Positions 15,444 through 24,919 of a DNA stretch of 64,000 bases are shown here, one piece after another. A model generated the notes under the pieces. The model was not told where the DNA came from, made no database searches, and saw only the letters and a program-made list of their open reading frames with translations. A program made the position numbers and the translations under genes. Position 1 is the first letter of the stretch. Every line of letters begins with the position of its first letter. The DNA comes from an uncultured Tateyamaria sp. (GTDB lineage: Bacteria; Pseudomonadota; Alphaproteobacteria; Rhodobacterales; Rhodobacteraceae), in NCBI RefSeq assembly GCF_947503705.1, contig NZ_CANNES010000001.1, forward strand, positions 496,001 to 560,000, given 5' to 3'.

Positions 15444-16581
15444 GGATTGGGAAAACGGGGGCTTTGGCCTCTATATCCATTGGCCGTTCTGTGCCGCCAA
15501 ATGCCCTTATTGCGATTTCAACAGCCACGTGACGCGGTCAGTGGATCATCCCGCTTGGCGCGATGCCTATGTGTCAGAAATCAAACGGATGGGGTCAGAG
15601 ACATCGGGGCGCGTGCTTCGTTCTGTTTTCTTTGGGGGCGGGACACCCAGCCTGATGGACCCCGCGACCGTTGGTGCGATCATGGAAACGGTGCATGCAA
15701 CCTGGCCCATCGCAAACGATCTTGAGGTCACACTGGAGGCAAACCCAACGTCCGTCGAGGCGGCCAAGTTTGCCGACTTTCATCTGGCTGGCGTCAATCG
15801 TGTGTCCATGGGTATCCAGGCGCTGAACGATCTCGACCTTGCCGCTTTGGGTCGTCTGCATTCCGCCAACGAGGCATTGGCAGCATTTGATATTGCGCGG
15901 CGCGAATTTGATCGGGTCAGCTTTGATTTGATGTATGGGCGGCAAAACCAGTCTCTAACCGGGTGGGAAACCGAACTTTCGACCGCTTTGTCCCTCGGCC
16001 TCGATCACGTATCGCTTTATCAACTCACAGTCGAGAACGGGACCGCCTTTGGCGAGCGGTACAAGGCAGGCAAGCTGCGCGGTTTGCCGGACGAAGATTT
16101 ATCGGCGGATATGTACGCGCTGACGCAAGAGATTTGCGAAGCCCATGGAATGCCCCGCTATGAGGTGTCGAACCACGCCACAGATGGCAACGCGTCACGA
16201 CATAACCTGATCTATTGGCGCTATGGCGATTACGTGGGGATAGGCCCGGGTGCCCATGGACGGATCACGCGGCAGGGCAAACGATGGGCGACAGAACAGA
16301 AGCGGATGCCGACCGGGTGGTTGAGCGGCGAAGGCCGCGAAACGCGGGATGGACTGTCTGGCACGGATCAAGCCAGTGAATTTCTGCTCATGGGGCTGCG
16401 TCTGACCGAAGGTGTGGACATAAAACGCTATGAGACGTTGGCTGAACAGCCGTTAGATGAGGGCAAGCTGCAACATCTACAAGATATTGGTATGATCGTT
16501 CGCTCAGAAAGCAGAATTACTGTTACAGATCAAGGGTTTACCGTTTTGAATGGTGTTCTCAGAGAGTTGCTGTCAGCTTAA
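15436..16581 (+). CDS. hemW: HemW radical SAM heme chaperone
   Basis: A 381-residue radical SAM protein. The iron-sulfur motif CAAKCPYC (CxxxCxxC) follows YIHWPF, and GGGTPSLM is the SAM-binding motif, as in HemW. HemW is a heme-trafficking protein formerly called oxygen-independent coproporphyrinogen oxidase-like; it is not expected to be a true HemN. The likely start is TTG 15436 inside the last codons of rdgB; no ATG precedes the conserved region. Its stop shares TTAA with the convergent parB. It adds to the heme genes hemJ, hemD and hemY in this window. Confidence 0.92.
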   Translation: MAEDWENGGFGLYIHWPFCAAKCPYCDFNSHVTRSVDHPAWRDAYVSEIKRMGSETSGRVLRSVFFGGGTPSLMDPATVGAIMETVHATWPIANDLEVTLEANPTSVEAAKFADFHLAGVNRVSMGIQALNDLDLAALGRLHSANEALAAFDIARREFDRVSFDLMYGRQNQSLTGWETELSTALSLGLDHVSLYQLTVENGTAFGERYKAGKLRGLPDEDLSADMYALTQEICEAHGMPRYEVSNHATDGNASRHNLIYWRYGDYVGIGPGAHGRITRQGKRWATEQKRMPTGWLSGEGRETRDGLSGTDQASEFLLMGLRLTEGVDIKRYETLAEQPLDEGKLQHLQDIGMIVRSESRITVTDQGFTVLNGVLRELLSA

Positions 16582-17462
16582 CTGCTCAGCTTACGGCACA
16601 AATCATCCAACTGTTCCAAAGACGTGTAGTGCAGCGTGATCTGACCCGCCTCGCCATTTGGCTTATGAGTCAGTGAGACTTTCATCCCAGTCGCGGCCGA
16701 CAGATCGCTTTCGAGCGCCTTGGTATCTGCATCCTTCTCGGCCGCGGCAGGTTTTGCCCCACCGCCAAAGATGTTTTTAGCGCCCTCAGCAGATTTCTTG
16801 ACCAACGCCTCGGCGGCGCGTACCGACAGGCCGCCCGCGATGATCTTCTTTGCCAAAGCTTCTGGCTCATCCGCAGTGATCAATGCACGGGCGTGACCGG
16901 CGCTTAGATCGCCTTTGACCACATAGTCCTGAATGGATGCGGGCAAGTTCAAGAGACGCAAAAGGTTCGCAATGTGGCTGCGGCTTTTGCCAAGGGCTTC
17001 TGCCATCTTTTCCTGAGTATGGCCGAACTTTTCCATCAACTGGTGATAGCCTGCCGCCTCTTCGATGGGGTTCAGGTCAGCGCGCTGAATGTTTTCAATG
17101 ATCGCAACTTCGAGAACTTCAGTATCGGTGAAATCACGCACAATGACCGGCAAACTGTGCAATTGCGCTTGTTGCGCCGCGCGCCAGCGGCGTTCACCAG
17201 CCACAATCTCGTATTCGTCGCCGACACGGCGAACGATCAAAGGCTGCAGGACACCCTTTTCCTTGATCGACGCCACCAGATCATCAAGCGGGGCCGCCTC
17301 GAACTGTTTTCGAGGCTGATCAGGGTTCGGGCGAATTTTCTCAATCGGGATCTGCTGGTCAAGCGGGATCGCGGAAGTATCAGTCGCCTGCGGTTCGTTC
17401 ACATCCGCCATCAGTGCTGACAATCCGCGCCCAAGTCCTCGTTTCTTATCTCCGCTCGCCAT
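16578..17462 (-). CDS. parB: Chromosome-partitioning protein ParB
   Basis: A 294-residue ParB. The N-terminus has GLGRGLSALM, followed by the CTP-binding motif GERRWRA near residue 92 and a helix-turn-helix around EALGKSRSHIANLLRLL. The C-terminal dimerisation domain ends in TLHYTSLEQLDDLCRKL. ParB loads at parS, spreads as a CTP-gated clamp and organises the origin region for segregation by ParA. Two perfect parS sites lie 1.4 and 3.3 kb upstream at 18829 and 20725. It starts three bases after parA and shares its stop bases with hemW. Confidence 0.97.
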   Translation of the reverse strand: MASGDKKRGLGRGLSALMADVNEPQATDTSAIPLDQQIPIEKIRPNPDQPRKQFEAAPLDDLVASIKEKGVLQPLIVRRVGDEYEIVAGERRWRAAQQAQLHSLPVIVRDFTDTEVLEVAIIENIQRADLNPIEEAAGYHQLMEKFGHTQEKMAEALGKSRSHIANLLRLLNLPASIQDYVVKGDLSAGHARALITADEPEALAKKIIAGGLSVRAAEALVKKSAEGAKNIFGGGAKPAAAEKDADTKALESDLSAATGMKVSLTHKPNGEAGQITLHYTSLEQLDDLCRKLSS

Positions 17463-17465
17463 GGC

Positions 17466-18272
17466 TTAGGCCCTCGCTGTGTTGTTATCGACCAATTCCT
17501 GCGCCAACTCGCGATAGGCAATCGCGCCCTTGGATGTCGTATCATAGTTTAAAACCGGCATTGCAAAAGACGGTGATTCACTGACGCGGACGTTGCGCGG
17601 GATACGCGTTTTAAAGACCACATCGCCAAGATTGTCCCGTGCGTCCTGTTCCACCTGCTGCGACAGGTTATTGCGCGCATCATACATCGTCAGGACAACA
17701 CCTTCGATCCGCAGATCAGGATTGCCCGTTTGGCGTACTTCCCGAATGGTCAGCATCAATTGCGACAAGCCTTCGAGGGCAAAGAATTCGCTTTGCAATG
17801 GAACGAGGATCGAGTGTGACGCAATCATCGCGTTGACTGTCAAAAGGTTCAGGGACGGCGGGCAATCTATCAAGATGTAATCAAACGCGTATTCATCCAT
17901 TTGCGGCTGGCGCAGGGCATCGTGGAGTAGAAAACTACGCTTTTCATTGGAAATCAGGTCAATATCAGCAGAACTGAGGTCCACCGTTGCGGGCACAATC
18001 GCGATGTTGTCAAAAGACGTCTTCAGAATGACATCCTTCAGATCAATGTCTTCCAGCAAGAGCTCATAGGTCGTGAACTCCCGTTCATCCATCTCGACGC
18101 CAAGTCCAGTCGATGCGTTGCCTTGGGGATCAAGATCAACGACCAAAACAGAATGCCCGATCTCTGCCAGAGCCGCGGCCAGGTTGATTGTTGTCGTGGT
18201 CTTGCCAACACCGCCTTTTTGGTTGGCAACCGAGATGATTTTGGGCCCTGGAGGACGCGTAGGATCAGGCAC
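17466..18272 (-). CDS. parA: Chromosome-partitioning ATPase ParA
   Basis: A 268-residue Soj/ParA-type ATPase. The deviant Walker A motif KGGVGKTTT lies near residue 20, and DCPPSLNLLTVNA forms the Walker B region. It binds DNA in the ATP state and pulls ParB-bound origins apart. The start is GTG 18272, which overlaps the end of rsmG by eight bases; this fits the conserved start (PKIISVANQKGG). Gene order rsmG-parA-parB is the classical alphaproteobacterial arrangement. No spo0J-like duplications are present. Confidence 0.97.
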   Translation of the reverse strand: MPDPTRPPGPKIISVANQKGGVGKTTTTINLAAALAEIGHSVLVVDLDPQGNASTGLGVEMDEREFTTYELLLEDIDLKDVILKTSFDNIAIVPATVDLSSADIDLISNEKRSFLLHDALRQPQMDEYAFDYILIDCPPSLNLLTVNAMIASHSILVPLQSEFFALEGLSQLMLTIREVRQTGNPDLRIEGVVLTMYDARNNLSQQVEQDARDNLGDVVFKTRIPRNVRVSESPSFAMPVLNYDTTSKGAIAYRELAQELVDNNTARA

Positions 18273-18876
18273 GTTCTATATCCCTTATTCTCAGGATGGC
18301 AGCATCTGGATTTGTCTTACTTGCTGTGACGTCATATGAAAACCACCAGTTTTTCCTGGCTTCTTCTATTTCGCTCGCCCACTTGCCGCCCTTCATAAAG
18401 ACGGCTGTGCCACTGGGCGCAATATGGCGTTGGCTGTGCCCCAGAAGGTCAGACAAAGTGGCGAGAGCGCGGGCCGAGATAACATCGGCACCTTGCGGCT
18501 CCGCCTGCTCGATACGCTGCGCGATAATCGTCATCGGCATATCCAGCGTTCTCGCACATGTGCGCAAAAAGGTTGCTTTTCGCTGGTCGCTTTCAACCAG
18601 GGTCATATTGATGGCATCGCCCTGTCCCGCTGCCAGAATGGCAACGACGACACCGGGAAGGCCCCCTCCTGAACCCAGATCGGCCCATTTACCAGCAACT
18701 GGTTGATAAACTTGCGCAGAATCCCAGATATGTCGGTGCGCGGCGTCATCAATCGTGGACTTTGCAATCAGGTTGATCTTGCCAGTCCATTTGATCAGCA
18801 GGTCATGATAGGCGGAAAGCTTATCCAATGTTTCACGTGAAACATCGTGGGCGAACCAGTCTGGCGGATGCATCAT
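18265..18876 (-). CDS. rsmG: 16S rRNA (guanine527-N7)-methyltransferase
   Basis: A 203-residue RsmG (GidB), which methylates N7 of G527 in 16S rRNA using SAM. The SAM-binding motif [11 protein letters not shown] is present near residue 70. Codons 11-16 (DVSRET) are written by a perfect parS site at 18829-18844, so the coding sequence and the segregation site coincide. ATG 18876 or the next codon ATG 18873 could be the start; the first overlaps the mnmG stop by four bases. Loss of rsmG is known to give low-level streptomycin resistance in other bacteria. Confidence 0.95.
18829..18844. other. parS centromere site 1, inside rsmG
   Basis: The 16-base palindrome TGTTTCACGTGAAACA is a perfect match to the ParB-binding parS consensus known from Bacillus and Caulobacter. 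It lies within the early rsmG codons and about 5.2 kb from the presumed origin. Confidence 0.95.
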
Positions 18877-20741
18877 GCGGTTTTCTTTTCCAAAAACCTG
18901 ATCCGGCCCAGGATCAAGGCCAGCCCAGCAGGTGTCATTCCGTCAATCCGTCCAGCTTGAGCCAGGTCGGACGGCCGGACTTTTTCCAATTTGCCGGTCA
19001 ACTCCGCCGATAACCCCGTCACATCCGCATAAGAGAAATCACTCGGAATGGCATGCTTTTCATCTTTACGCAGTTTTTCCACGTCTTGTTGCTGTCGCTG
19101 GATGTAATTCGCATAAAGCGCGTCGCGCGACAGCTGCTCCTGAATCTCAGGCTCCATCTCTTCCAGCGCTGCATCCAACCGCTTAACGTCATTGAACACA
19201 ACATCGGGAAAGGCCAGCAGTTGGAACGCTGTCCGCCGTGTGCCGTCTTGGTTGATCCGGATCCCGGTCGCAGCAATTTCTTTGGGTGTGTAAGACGACC
19301 CGCTCAACAACGCGCGGCCATTTTCAAGCTTTTCTTTCTTTGTTTGGTACGACATCCGCCGCGCGTTCCCAACACAGCCAAGATCAACGCCGAATTCTGT
19401 CAAACGTTGATCTGCGTTGTCAGCCCGCAAAGACAGGCGAAATTCGGCGCGGGATGTAAACATGCGATAAGGTTCTGTCACACCACGGGTGGTAAGATCG
19501 TCGATCATCACCCCAATGTAACTTGTGTTCCGGCGGAAATGCACAACGTCCCCACCTTGGGCCATGCGCGCAGCGTTCAGTCCAGAAACAAGCCCTTGGG
19601 CCGCCGCTTCCTCATACCCGGTCGTCCCATTGATCTGTCCCGCAAGGTATAACCCGGGGATATCGCATAGGCTGAGGTCAGCGTTCAGCGCACGGGGGTC
19701 GACATAGTCATATTCAATCGCATAGCCCGGTTGAATGATCTTTGCTTGCTCAAGCCCGGCGATGGAATGAACGTAATCCTCTTGCACATCTTGAGGCAAA
19801 GAGGTGGAAATCCCGTTCGGATAAACCGTATGATCCTCCAGCCCTTCCGGCTCTAGAAATATTTGATGCGAATCCTTGTCGGCGAACCGCACAATTTTAT
19901 CCTCAATCGAAGGACAGTAACGCGGCCCCACACCATCAATATGCCCTCCATACATCGCGGATCGTTCAAGATTTTCACGAATAATGTCATGGGTTTTCGC
20001 ATTGGTATGCGTGATGCCACAGGCAACTTGCCGCAGTGCTGGCGCCTTGGACATAAAGGAAAACAAGACAGGTTCGTCATCGGCTTCCTGCACGCTCAAC
20101 TGATCCCAGGCGATTGTGCGCCCATCAAGGCGCGGCGGCGTCCCTGTCTTCAGCCGACCAAGGGGCAGGCCAAAACTGTCGATCCGCTCGGCAAGCTTGG
20201 AAGACGCTTTGTCCCCCATGCGACCGCCGGAATAAGATGTATCACCAATATGGATAACGCCACGCAAGAATGTTCCTGTGGTCAGGATGACAGATTTCGC
20301 CGCAATCTCGGTCCCGTCGCCCAAAACAACACCAGCCACACGGTCACCTTGCATCAGGAAGTCAGTCACTTCCCCTACAATGATGGAGAGGCGCGGCGTG
20401 TTCTCCATGATGCTTTGCATTTCACGTTGGTAAACCTGGCGGTCTGCCTGTGTACGTGGACCTTGCACCGCCGGCCCTTTACGCCGGTTCAACAGACGGA
20501 ACTGAATACCGGCAGCATCCGCGACGCGACCCATGACGCCATCCAGCGCGTCGATCTCGCGGACAAGGTGCCCCTTACCCAACCCGCCAATTGCCGGGTT
20601 ACAGGACATGACGCCAATACCTTCAAGCTTCATCGTCACAAGGGCGGTATTTACGCCCATGCGCGCCGCCGCGTGGGCTGCCTCGCTGCCTGCGTGACCG
20701 CCACCAATGACGATGACATCGAATTGTTTCACGTGAAACAC
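18873..20741 (-). CDS. mnmG: tRNA uridine-5-carboxymethylaminomethyl modification enzyme MnmG
   Basis: A 622-residue MnmG (GidA). The FAD-binding motif [10 protein letters not shown] follows at residues 13-22, and conserved segments include [18 protein letters not shown] and a GRYKTGTPPR-type stretch ([13 protein letters not shown]). With MnmE it installs the cmnm5 group on the wobble uridine of certain tRNAs, using FAD, glycine and a folate cofactor. The first six codons are formed by a perfect parS site, giving the N-terminus MFHVKQ. It is separated from mnmE by four bases, so the two partners are probably made together. Confidence 0.97.
20725..20740. other. parS centromere site 2, at the mnmG start
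   Basis: Second perfect copy of TGTTTCACGTGAAACA. It begins at the second base of the mnmG start codon and fixes residues 1-6 of MnmG. It lies 1.9 kb from site 1 and about 3.3 kb from the presumed origin. Confidence 0.95.
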
Positions 20742-22050: not shown

Positions 22051-23340
22051 TCAGGTGTTCATCGAGTCAAAGAATTCAGCGTTCGTTTTGGTCTGCTTCA
22101 GCTTGGAAATCAGGAACTCGATTGCGTCGGTCGTGCCCATCGGGTTCAGGATACGGCGCAGGACAAAGGTTTTGGCCAAGTCCGTCTTGTCGACCAAAAG
22201 ATCCTCTTTCCGCGTACCAGACTTAAGAATGTCGATGGCAGGGAAGACGCGCTTGTCCGCAATCTTGCGATCCAGAACGATTTCCGAGTTACCAGTGCCC
22301 TTGAATTCTTCAAAGATCACCTCATCCATCCGGCTGCCGGTGTCGATCAGTGCGGTGGCGATGATGGTCAACGAGCCGCCTTCTTCGATATTCCGCGCGG
22401 CACCAAAGAAACGCTTGGGCCGTTGCAGGGCATTTGCATCCACACCACCGGTCAAAACCTTGCCCGAGGATGGAACAACAGTATTGAATGCTCTACCAAG
22501 TCTTGTGATCGAATCCAAAAGGATAACAACATCTCGTTTGTGTTCGACCAGACGCTTTGCCTTTTCAATGACCATTTCCGACACTGCCACGTGGCGCGTC
22601 GCGGGCTCATCAAAGGTCGAGCTGACAACCTCACCCTTAACCGAACGCTGCATGTCCGTGACTTCCTCGGGGCGTTCATCAATCAGCAGGACGATCAGGT
22701 AACATTCAGGATGGTTCTTTGCGATGCTTGTCGCAATGTTTTGCAGCAGAACCGTCTTACCCGTCCGCGGCGGGGCGACGATCAACGACCGCTGACCTTT
22801 ACCAATCGGGGACACCAGATCGATGATCCGGGCCGAGCGGTCGCGCGTCGCAGGGTCATCAGTTTCCATCGTCAGGCGTTCATCGGGATAGAGCGGTGTG
22901 AGGTTATCAAAGGCGATCTTGTGTTTGACCCGCTCGGGATCTTCAAAGTTGATCCGGGTGGCATTGGTCAGTGCGAAATACCGTTCGGCATCGTCGGGGG
23001 CCTTGATTACGCCCTCAATCGTATCCCCCGTGCGCAACGAATACTGACGGATCATCTCGGGCGAAACATAGATATCATCAGGGCCGGGCAGATAGTTCGC
23101 CTCGGGCGAGCGAAGGAAGCCAAAGCCGTCCTGGAGAACCTCCAGCACGCCATCACCAGAAACCTCCCATCCCTCGTCCGCGCGTTCGCGCAGAATCTGG
23201 AACATCATCTCGCCTTTGCGCATGGTCGAGGCATTCTCGATCTCAAGCTCTTCGGCCATGTCCAACAGGTCTTTGGGGCTTTGTGCCTTCAGTTCGGCCA
23301 GGGCAAGACGTTCGGTGGTCTCGGTCATTTCTTCGGTCAT
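22051..23340 (-). CDS. rho: Transcription termination factor Rho
   Basis: A 429-residue Rho, the hexameric RNA helicase that ends transcription. The RNA-binding cold-shock-like domain contains DGFGFLRS, Walker A reads [14 protein letters not shown], and downstream are [13 protein letters not shown] and SGGVDANAL-type loops ([17 protein letters not shown]). The length fits the family. The start may be ATG 23340 or ATG 23328 four codons later. mnmE follows 21 bases downstream. The 124-base leader back to hemJ contains a short GCGCC/GGCGC inverted repeat. Confidence 0.96.
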
Positions 23341-23464: not shown

Positions 23465-23914
23465 TCAGAACTTGACCACCACTGACAGCACTATGAGTGC
23501 CATCAGGATCGTGGGCACCTCGTTCATCATCCGGTAGTTACGCCCCGACTTGATCGGACCGCCGGCGGCAAAGGCTTTGCGCTGCCCCACCAGCCAACCG
23601 TGAAAGCCGGACATGGCCAGAATACCCACCAGCTTGGTCCAGGGCCATACAGCGCCCCAATCGACCACACCGGGGATCAGGGCAAGGCATATGCCAAACA
23701 CCCAGGTTGCGATCATAGCCGGGTTCATGATCACCTTGAGCAGCTTATATTCCATGGTCAGGAACAGGTCGTGCGTCTCACCGCCTAGCCCCACCTGTTC
23801 TGAGTGATAAACGTAAAGACGAGGCAGATAGAACAGCGCTGCCATCCAGGCGATGACGGACATGATATGGAATGCCTTGATCCACGGATAGAGGCTGATG
23901 ATGAGATCAAACAT
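23465..23914 (-). CDS. hemJ: Protoporphyrinogen IX oxidase HemJ
   Basis: A 149-residue membrane protein of the HemJ family (UPF0093), the oxidase used for protoporphyrinogen oxidation in most alphaproteobacteria. I see four hydrophobic segments, including SLYPWIKAFHIMSVIAWMAA with the conserved histidine, and YRMMNEVPTILM near the C-terminus, which is characteristic. It is the last gene on the minus strand before the presumed origin. hemE, which sits here in some relatives, is absent from the window. Confidence 0.92.
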   Translation of the reverse strand: MFDLIISLYPWIKAFHIMSVIAWMAALFYLPRLYVYHSEQVGLGGETHDLFLTMEYKLLKVIMNPAMIATWVFGICLALIPGVVDWGAVWPWTKLVGILAMSGFHGWLVGQRKAFAAGGPIKSGRNYRMMNEVPTILMALIVLSVVVKF

Positions 23915-23998
23915 GTTCGAGCGCCCTTGGTTCTCGCCCCCTATAAATAAATAAAGAAAAGAGAAAAAGGATGATGATTATGTAGAGGCCCGGATTTC

Positions 23999-24042
23999 TG
24001 TGGATTACCCTGTTATCCACGGATTACCCACAGTGTGGATTT
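23999..24042. promoter_or_regulatory. Cluster of near-consensus DnaA boxes
   Basis: Four overlapping or adjacent nonamers close to TTATCCACA: TGTGGATTA at 23999-24007 (reverse strand, one mismatch), TTATCCACG at 24013-24021 (one mismatch), TTACCCACA at 24024-24032 (one mismatch) and TGTGGATTT at 24034-24042 (reverse strand, two mismatches). A single weak box TGTGGACAA lies apart at 24142-24150. Confidence 0.7.
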
Positions 24043-24311
24043 CAATGGCCCTTTGGTGGGAAAATTGACCTGTATCCTTAAAAAATATATCGAAAACAAC
24101 GTGTTGCAACAGTTTTTCAGCATCAATGATCTGAGTATTATTGTGGACAAGTTGGTATGGATTACTTTGTCCTCGAACGTGTTTTTATCCTTACTCAGAT
24201 GGGACAAAATCAGGCGCAACAGCGCGGAAGTTCAGACAAACCCACACTTGCGGCCCTGACCGGAATTTCGCACAACCTCATCCAATCGCCGTCCCGCGGC
24301 CCCGCACAGGG

Positions 24312-24320
24312 TTATCCACA
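24312..24320 (+). promoter_or_regulatory. Perfect DnaA box next to the maf start
   Basis: TTATCCACA matches the DnaA consensus exactly. Its last base is the A of the maf start codon ATG, so DnaA binding here could also affect maf expression (inference). Confidence 0.75.
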
Positions 24321-24919
24321 TGTCTATCCCATTGATCCTTGCGTCAGGTTCCGCAATCCGGGCCACTTTGCTGCAAAATGCAGGCCTGTCCTTTGAACAG
24401 ATCGTCGCGCGCATTGATGAACAATCCGTTAAAGAGGCCATGGTGGCAAGCGAAGCACCGCCGCGCGACATTGCCGATACCCTGGCCGAGATGAAAGCGC
24501 GCAAAGTGGCAGACAAGCATCCCGAAGCAATGGTCATCGGTTGCGATCAGGTGTTGGCATTCGAAGGCGCGATCCTGTCCAAGCCCATAGATCCCGAGGA
24601 TGCCCGCGCGCAATTGCGCCTGATGCGGACAAAGCGCCATATGCTGTTGTCTGCAGCCGTCATCTATCACGAAGGTAAACCCATCTGGCGCCATATCGGC
24701 CAGGTGCGCTTGCGGATGCGGAACATGTCTGACGCTTATATTGGCGGCTATGTCGACCGGAACTGGGCCGAGATTCAGCACGCCGTGGGCAGCTATATGC
24801 TGGAGGCCGAGGGCGTGCGCCTGTTTCACAGCATCGAGGGGGATTACTTTCACGTTCTTGGTATGCCACTTTTAGAGCTGCTCGCGTTTCTGACCTTGCG
24901 CGGCGTGATCGAAGGTTGA
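24320..24919 (+). CDS. maf: Maf-family nucleoside triphosphate pyrophosphatase
   Basis: A 199-residue Maf protein. The N-terminal motif ILASGSAIRATLL and the downstream GCDQVLAFEG correspond to the substrate-binding and catalytic regions. Maf enzymes hydrolyse non-canonical or modified nucleotides. In Rhodobacteraceae this is the copy placed before aroE; the exact substrate is not deducible. Normal family length. It is the first gene to the right of the presumed origin and starts directly on a perfect DnaA box. It leads the maf-aroE-coaE-dnaQ operon. Confidence 0.9.
   Translation: MSIPLILASGSAIRATLLQNAGLSFEQIVARIDEQSVKEAMVASEAPPRDIADTLAEMKARKVADKHPEAMVIGCDQVLAFEGAILSKPIDPEDARAQLRLMRTKRHMLLSAAVIYHEGKPIWRHIGQVRLRMRNMSDAYIGGYVDRNWAEIQHAVGSYMLEAEGVRLFHSIEGDYFHVLGMPLLELLAFLTLRGVIEG

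Follow-up and report, generated by a model that had tools for sequence, protein, structure and literature searches.

A predicted chromosomal replication origin between hemJ and maf in an uncultured Tateyamaria sp.

The mapped chromosomal origin of Caulobacter crescentus (Cori) sits between hemE and a gene of the COG1806/DUF299 family, and the available part of PMC1914354 holds this hemE-Cori-COG1806 order to be likely ancestral. Within the Rhodobacteraceae, an oriC adjoining maf is described as conserved in the accessible text of a Ketogulonicigenium vulgare paper (PMC4793288), and Ori-Finder was used to assign 101 origins of the family, closeness to parAB being among the criteria (PMC6699656, available in part). 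Members of the order studied so far can dispense with ctrA, according to the part of PMC8116508 at hand. The basal unwinding system consists of a DnaA-box, a spacer and DnaA-trios (PMC8287927, PMC6669920; excerpts), with 3'-GAT-5' as the trio consensus (PMC8287927) and a spacer of up to 16 nt permitted in the published trio search. Adjacency of maf and oriC is already known in print, and the predicted origin described here is a standard one for its family.

The window (the whole 64-kb stretch analysed) covers C1:496001-560000 of an assembly of 31 contigs and 4,430,213 bases. It contains a 405-bp hemJ/maf intergenic gap at 23915-24319 (C1:519,915-520,319), which we predict with very high confidence to be the chromosomal oriC (Table 1). 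The initial annotation had proposed this gap as the origin, and the proposal is supported by a skew change point, a box cluster, a melting region, parS sites, conservation among relatives and a position shared with Caulobacter. The likely origin of this genome is thereby narrowed to about 400 bp. As the annotation had described, genes diverge on either side of the 405 bases, hemJ (minus strand) starting at 23914 and maf (plus strand) at 24320, and the AT-rich tracts reported there correspond to 54% AT overall and up to 82.5% across 40 bp. Among ORFs 100 aa or longer, a single one enters the gap (24232-24537, minus strand, antisense to maf), and Rfam gave zero matches at gathering score across the 64-kb window. 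Gene names are based on Pfam matches; we take hemJ to be the name for the UPF0093 family, and COG1806, DUF299 and PF03618 to be one family.

Table 1 Features in and around the proposed origin (positions in the window)
Feature	Position	Strand	Remark
parB	16578..17462	-	Pfam
parA	17466..18272	-	Pfam
parS, perfect	18829..18844	no strand	inside gidB near start
parS, perfect	20725..20740	no strand	start of gidA
rho	22051..23340	-	Pfam
hemJ, left flank	23465..23914	-	Pfam UPF0093
Proposed oriC	23915..24319	no strand	gap separating divergent hemJ and maf
Probable DNA unwinding element	23938..23987	no strand	nearest-neighbour energies
Conserved GATGATGAT..GTAG block, DnaA-trio-like	23970..23985	+	41-sequence alignment
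DnaA box TAATCCACA, 1 mismatch	23999..24007	-	13 bp from trio-like block
DnaA box TTATCCACG, 1 mismatch	24013..24021	+	
DnaA box TTACCCACA, 1 mismatch	24024..24032	+	
DnaA box TTGTCCACA, 1 mismatch	24142..24150	-	
Exact DnaA box TTATCCACA	24312..24320	+	final A = A of maf ATG
maf, right flank	24320..24919	+	Pfam Maf

Five predicted DnaA boxes, each with at most one mismatch to TTATCCACA, lie in the gap. This is beyond chance, since 1000 dinucleotide shuffles of the gap yielded 0.125 boxes on average and never above 2. The perfect box announced at 24312 is present at 24312-24320 on the plus strand; the near-perfect boxes were also found, but number four (23999, 24013, 24024 and 24142) and not 'about five'. 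The exact box is the sole TTATNCACA within the window, although a lone exact site is not unusual by itself (0.58 expected in the window). The left box at 23999 reads TGTGGATTA as a reverse box in the left-to-right layout. Together, the two outer boxes make up an inverted repeat of 15 nt (23999-24013 and 24306-24320, 93% complementary), longer than the 9-mer itself. A better box cluster elsewhere in the genome, which according to the initial annotation would speak against the gap, was looked for by counting boxes directly on the DNA. In the 1,221,909 of 4,430,213 bases read (28%), chosen to include 28 of the genome's 29 exact boxes, the gap is the densest cluster; no other 405-bp stretch exceeds three boxes, so that the next best in these 1.22 of 4.43 Mb holds three.

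Genome-wide, exact copies of TTATCCACA are strongly strand-biased (26 minus, 3 plus, n=29; examples are C1:798633, C1:798645 and C3:241575). TTATGCACA is strand-mixed (8 minus, 5 plus), as is TTATTCACA (3 minus, 4 plus), and boxes with up to one mismatch are strand-even, with at least 252 plus and at least 270 minus among the matches listed. An explanation of the biased exact boxes by replication strand was rejected, as minus-strand boxes occur under both skew signs. A cluster at C1:798.5 kb (L014:18514-18653) has three boxes in 140 bp, including an exact pair spaced by 12 bp, and may be a secondary site of DnaA binding or titration.

The arrangement recurs in relatives. A Maf protein scan returned 41 loci, 40 of which we take to be Rhodobacteraceae in the broad sense; the 41st (L061) is a distant Porticoccaceae match with 36% identity and was left out of the counts. 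Divergent hemJ and maf with a gap of 382-429 bp were seen in 40/41 loci. The 400 bp before maf in the 40 named loci, many of them closely related (Tateyamaria, Sulfitobacter), hold a mean of 3.30 boxes vs 0.12 after shuffling, with two or more in 39/40. A genus-level set was drawn from a one-per-genus sample (149 genomes searched, 145 matching), the 40 loci used being plus-strand maf rows only. Here the mean is 2.42 boxes vs 0.08, with at least two in 28/40 and none in four; in three of these four, an extra gene lies between the gap and maf, and the true gaps hold two to three boxes. The fourth, the hemJ/maf gap of L196, is a genuine exception with zero boxes within one mismatch. The genus-level flanks are hemJ/maf in 29/40 (323-480 bp), rho/maf in 5/40, hemJ/COG1806-maf in 3/40, hemJ-hemE/maf and hemJ-hemE/COG1806-maf in 1/40 each, and unassigned in 1/40. 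In the five rho/maf genomes, where no hemJ intervenes, the 500 bp preceding maf hold 5 (L167), 3 (L171), 1 (L175), 2 (L181) and 2 (L193) boxes. A minus-strand box around -175 to -200, comparable to the one at 24142, recurs across many relatives.

The left part of the gap holds a probable melting region. An A-rich strand runs over 23938-23969, and by nearest-neighbour energies 23938-23987 ranks as the least stable among all 63,950 50-mers of the window. This AT-rich element adjoins the outer left box. The trio-like block within it reads GATGATGATTATGTAG and is separated from the left box by a spacer of 13 bp that is part GC-rich; in the alignment of 41 sequences, the columns of both belong to the best conserved. 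The exact left-box 9-mer is found at the same place in 27/40 named and 9/40 genus-level loci. A strict trio pattern is present in 38/40 named loci (0.20 expected) and in 10/40 genus-level loci (0.08 expected), and the block is therefore less general than the boxes. The first trio lies 13 nt from the box, while a run of four NAN starts 17 nt from it. Past the first trio the register shifts by 1 nt, so that a run of at least three in-register trios begins only at 17 nt.

At the right end of the gap, the initiator box overlaps the maf start, its final base opening the gene. A forward box between -40 and +10 of the maf start, as estimated by tblastn in the relatives, occurs in 35/40 named and 27/40 genus-level loci, compared with 0.17 of 40 expected from mononucleotide shuffling. 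The last A of the box coincides with the first base of an in-frame ATG in 31/40 named and 13/40 genus-level loci. Maf is a nucleotide pyrophosphatase that in Bacillus has been linked to control of the septum. We put forward only tentatively, and consider rather improbable, the proposal that in the maf-adjacent origins of the family the right-hand box is often part of the maf start codon (TTATCCACATG) and that DnaA assembling on the origin would thereby also block transcription or ribosome access at maf; if true, this would couple Maf straight to the initiation of replication, in this case at an origin lacking CtrA-type sites. In the literature searched, insofar as its text was available, no publication was found that describes a DnaA box merged with the start codon of maf, and the accessible part of PMC4793288 makes no mention of a start-codon-fused box or of the trio-like block.

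Perfect parS sites number just two in the entire genome, at distances of 3.2 and 5.1 kb from the gap. The parA and parB genes are near as well, a usual though not strictly defining trait of DnaA-dependent chromosomal origins. Both are within coding sequence, near the gidB and gidA starts. In the part of PMC6699656 available, TGTTTCACG is one of three 'DnaA box' motifs, and it corresponds to the first nine bases of parS here. This parS-like motif may have helped the origin calls of that study for another reason.

Over the continuous 680 kb of C1:240,001-920,000, the best two-segment change point is 519,796 for GC skew and 520,703 for keto skew (G+T minus A+C), both at the gap (519,915-520,319). 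Left of the gap, GC skew is negative in 10/10 samples of 20-40 kb along C1; to the right it is positive in 9/12. The initial annotation had expected cumulative GC skew to switch here. The best change point does so, whereas the cumulative minimum falls at 608,302, 88 kb from the gap, on a plateau where the curve is flat from 520 to 620 kb. The other cumulative minima across C1:240-920 kb are likewise off the gap (keto 602,557; T-A 550,144). With this minimum and with dnaA at C1:569,253-569,738, 49 kb right of the gap, skew alone cannot separate 520 from 570-610 kb in this genome.

An origin at or near dnaA, with the hemJ/maf gap as a DnaA-binding regulatory region only, would accommodate the 520-620 kb plateau and a change-point statistic of 12.10 at dnaA, only a little below the 12.92 of the best change point; one genome paper from a related genus (PMC11943960, in its available part) marks the origin by dnaA. 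It does not fit the box distribution, as the 20 kb containing dnaA (L010) has a maximum of two boxes with up to one mismatch per 405-bp stretch, nor the conservation of melting region and boxes at hemJ/maf. Among relatives in which dnaA lies far from maf, the sign change is also away from dnaA in G013, in G101 and, if its contig is circular, in G094. In G013 (217 kb between the genes), skew turns at maf: 7/7 samples before maf are negative, 3/5 between maf and dnaA are positive and 2/5 negative, and 6/6 past dnaA are positive. In G094 (192 kb if the dnaA-starting contig is taken as circular) it likewise turns at maf, with 5/6 samples on the far side of maf negative and 2/2 just past maf and 5/5 from dnaA positive. 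In G101 (505 kb), dnaA falls within a negative arm, with 7/8 samples negative at 2.04-2.48 Mb and 3/4 at 2.52-2.72 Mb, followed by 5/7 positive past maf. The change in G101 is spread across 2.5-2.9 Mb, where its hemJ-hemE/COG1806-maf gap sits, and is hence coarser and compatible with a turn at maf. These counts leave out the samples holding maf and dnaA in G013, the maf sample in G101 and G094, and a pair of distant G094 samples (negative at 1.00 Mb, positive at 0.60 Mb). G055 (122 kb) does not discriminate between the two genes; both samples wholly between maf and dnaA are weakly positive, which does not favour maf and is in line with an origin at dnaA. Taken together, we regard an origin at dnaA as very unlikely.

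A slighter chance still is given to the gap being a divergent DnaA-regulated promoter, or a DnaA-titration site of the datA type, with no origin activity. Its location between divergent genes and the overlap of the right box with the maf start codon would suit a promoter. Such a role gives no reason to expect a strong melting region just where skew changes and parS sites lie close, or a gap whose size is kept across genomes that differ in their hemJ, hemE or COG1806 flanks.

The absence of CtrA-type TTAA-N7-TTAA sites from the gap, remarked on in the initial annotation, holds even with one mismatch allowed. GANTC is also absent from the gap, although 405 bp is too short for this to be significant (about 1.6 expected by simple arithmetic). 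No exact match to WATCAANNNNTTR, the IHF consensus, was found in the gap, where exact matches only were scored. In the relatives, exact CtrA-type sites occur in 6/40 named (0.83 expected) and 2/40 genus-level loci (0.44 expected), and sites with one mismatch in 23/40 (12.4 expected) and 13/40 (6.8 expected), respectively. One-mismatch sites in the 400 bp before maf of the relatives are thus roughly twofold above shuffles. Given this excess, CtrA may still control the origin in some relatives, and a blanket claim that the family has abandoned such control was rejected. For the Tateyamaria origin, control without direct CtrA binding appears the likelier reading. The gap offers a precise set of candidate initiation sites, open to testing, in an order whose studied members can do without ctrA (PMC8116508, part available).

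The initial annotation had placed the Caulobacter origin between heme genes with rho and a maf block, which disagrees with the mapped flanks, hemE and COG1806/DUF299, given in the available part of PMC1914354. The Tateyamaria gap lacks the hemE and COG1806 flanks: hemE is at C1:1,098,516, 578 kb from the gap, and COG1806 (PF03618) was looked for in this genome and not found. Among the 149 genomes, in a survey that judged only those with maf well matched, COG1806 is present in seven and lies directly before maf in 7/7 (adjacency taken from coordinates). In six genomes hemE was found within 0.5 kb of the gap (G004, G017, G054, G093, G101 and G122), and G004, G054 and G101 have both genes, which is the Caulobacter order. 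Ten gaps flanked by hemE and/or COG1806 hold 23 boxes vs 0.93 expected; the G017 gap has a single box, and several of these gaps have only modest AT-rich stretches. As a few genera retain hemE and/or COG1806 here, this appears to be the same locus as the Caulobacter origin with changed flanks, and a plain reading is that the origin stayed put while hemE left and COG1806 was lost. These intermediates in other genera suggest that one alphaproteobacterial origin kept its place while hemE, COG1806 and sometimes hemJ changed. No published census of flank changes at the maf-adjacent origin was found in the literature searched, as far as its text was available.

From the layout of these sites, a course of initiation can be proposed. 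DnaA would bind the left box at 23999 together with those at 24013 and 24024, the middle box at 24142 and the right box at 24312. A DnaA filament would grow from the left box onto the trio-like block and open the AT-rich 23938-23987 on the hemJ side. Helicases would presumably load there, and one fork would depart to either side. Bound at the pair of parS sites 3-5 kb leftward, ParB would then segregate the new origins.

Compared with Caulobacter Cori, the gap differs in that hemE is 578 kb off and COG1806 was not found, and in having no TTAA-N7-TTAA, GANTC or exact IHF consensus. The two share a neighbourhood (via the relatives), a size of about 400 bp, DnaA boxes and an AT-rich stretch. With the basal unwinding system the gap shares the box, the 13-bp part-GC-rich spacer, a first 3'-GAT-5' trio on the expected strand and the AT-rich region, although here the register slips one base past the first trio. 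The predicted maf-side oriC regions of Rhodobacteraceae (DoriC/Ori-Finder; K. vulgare, PMC4793288, in the text available) have the same maf flank, and nothing marks the Tateyamaria gap as a separate kind.
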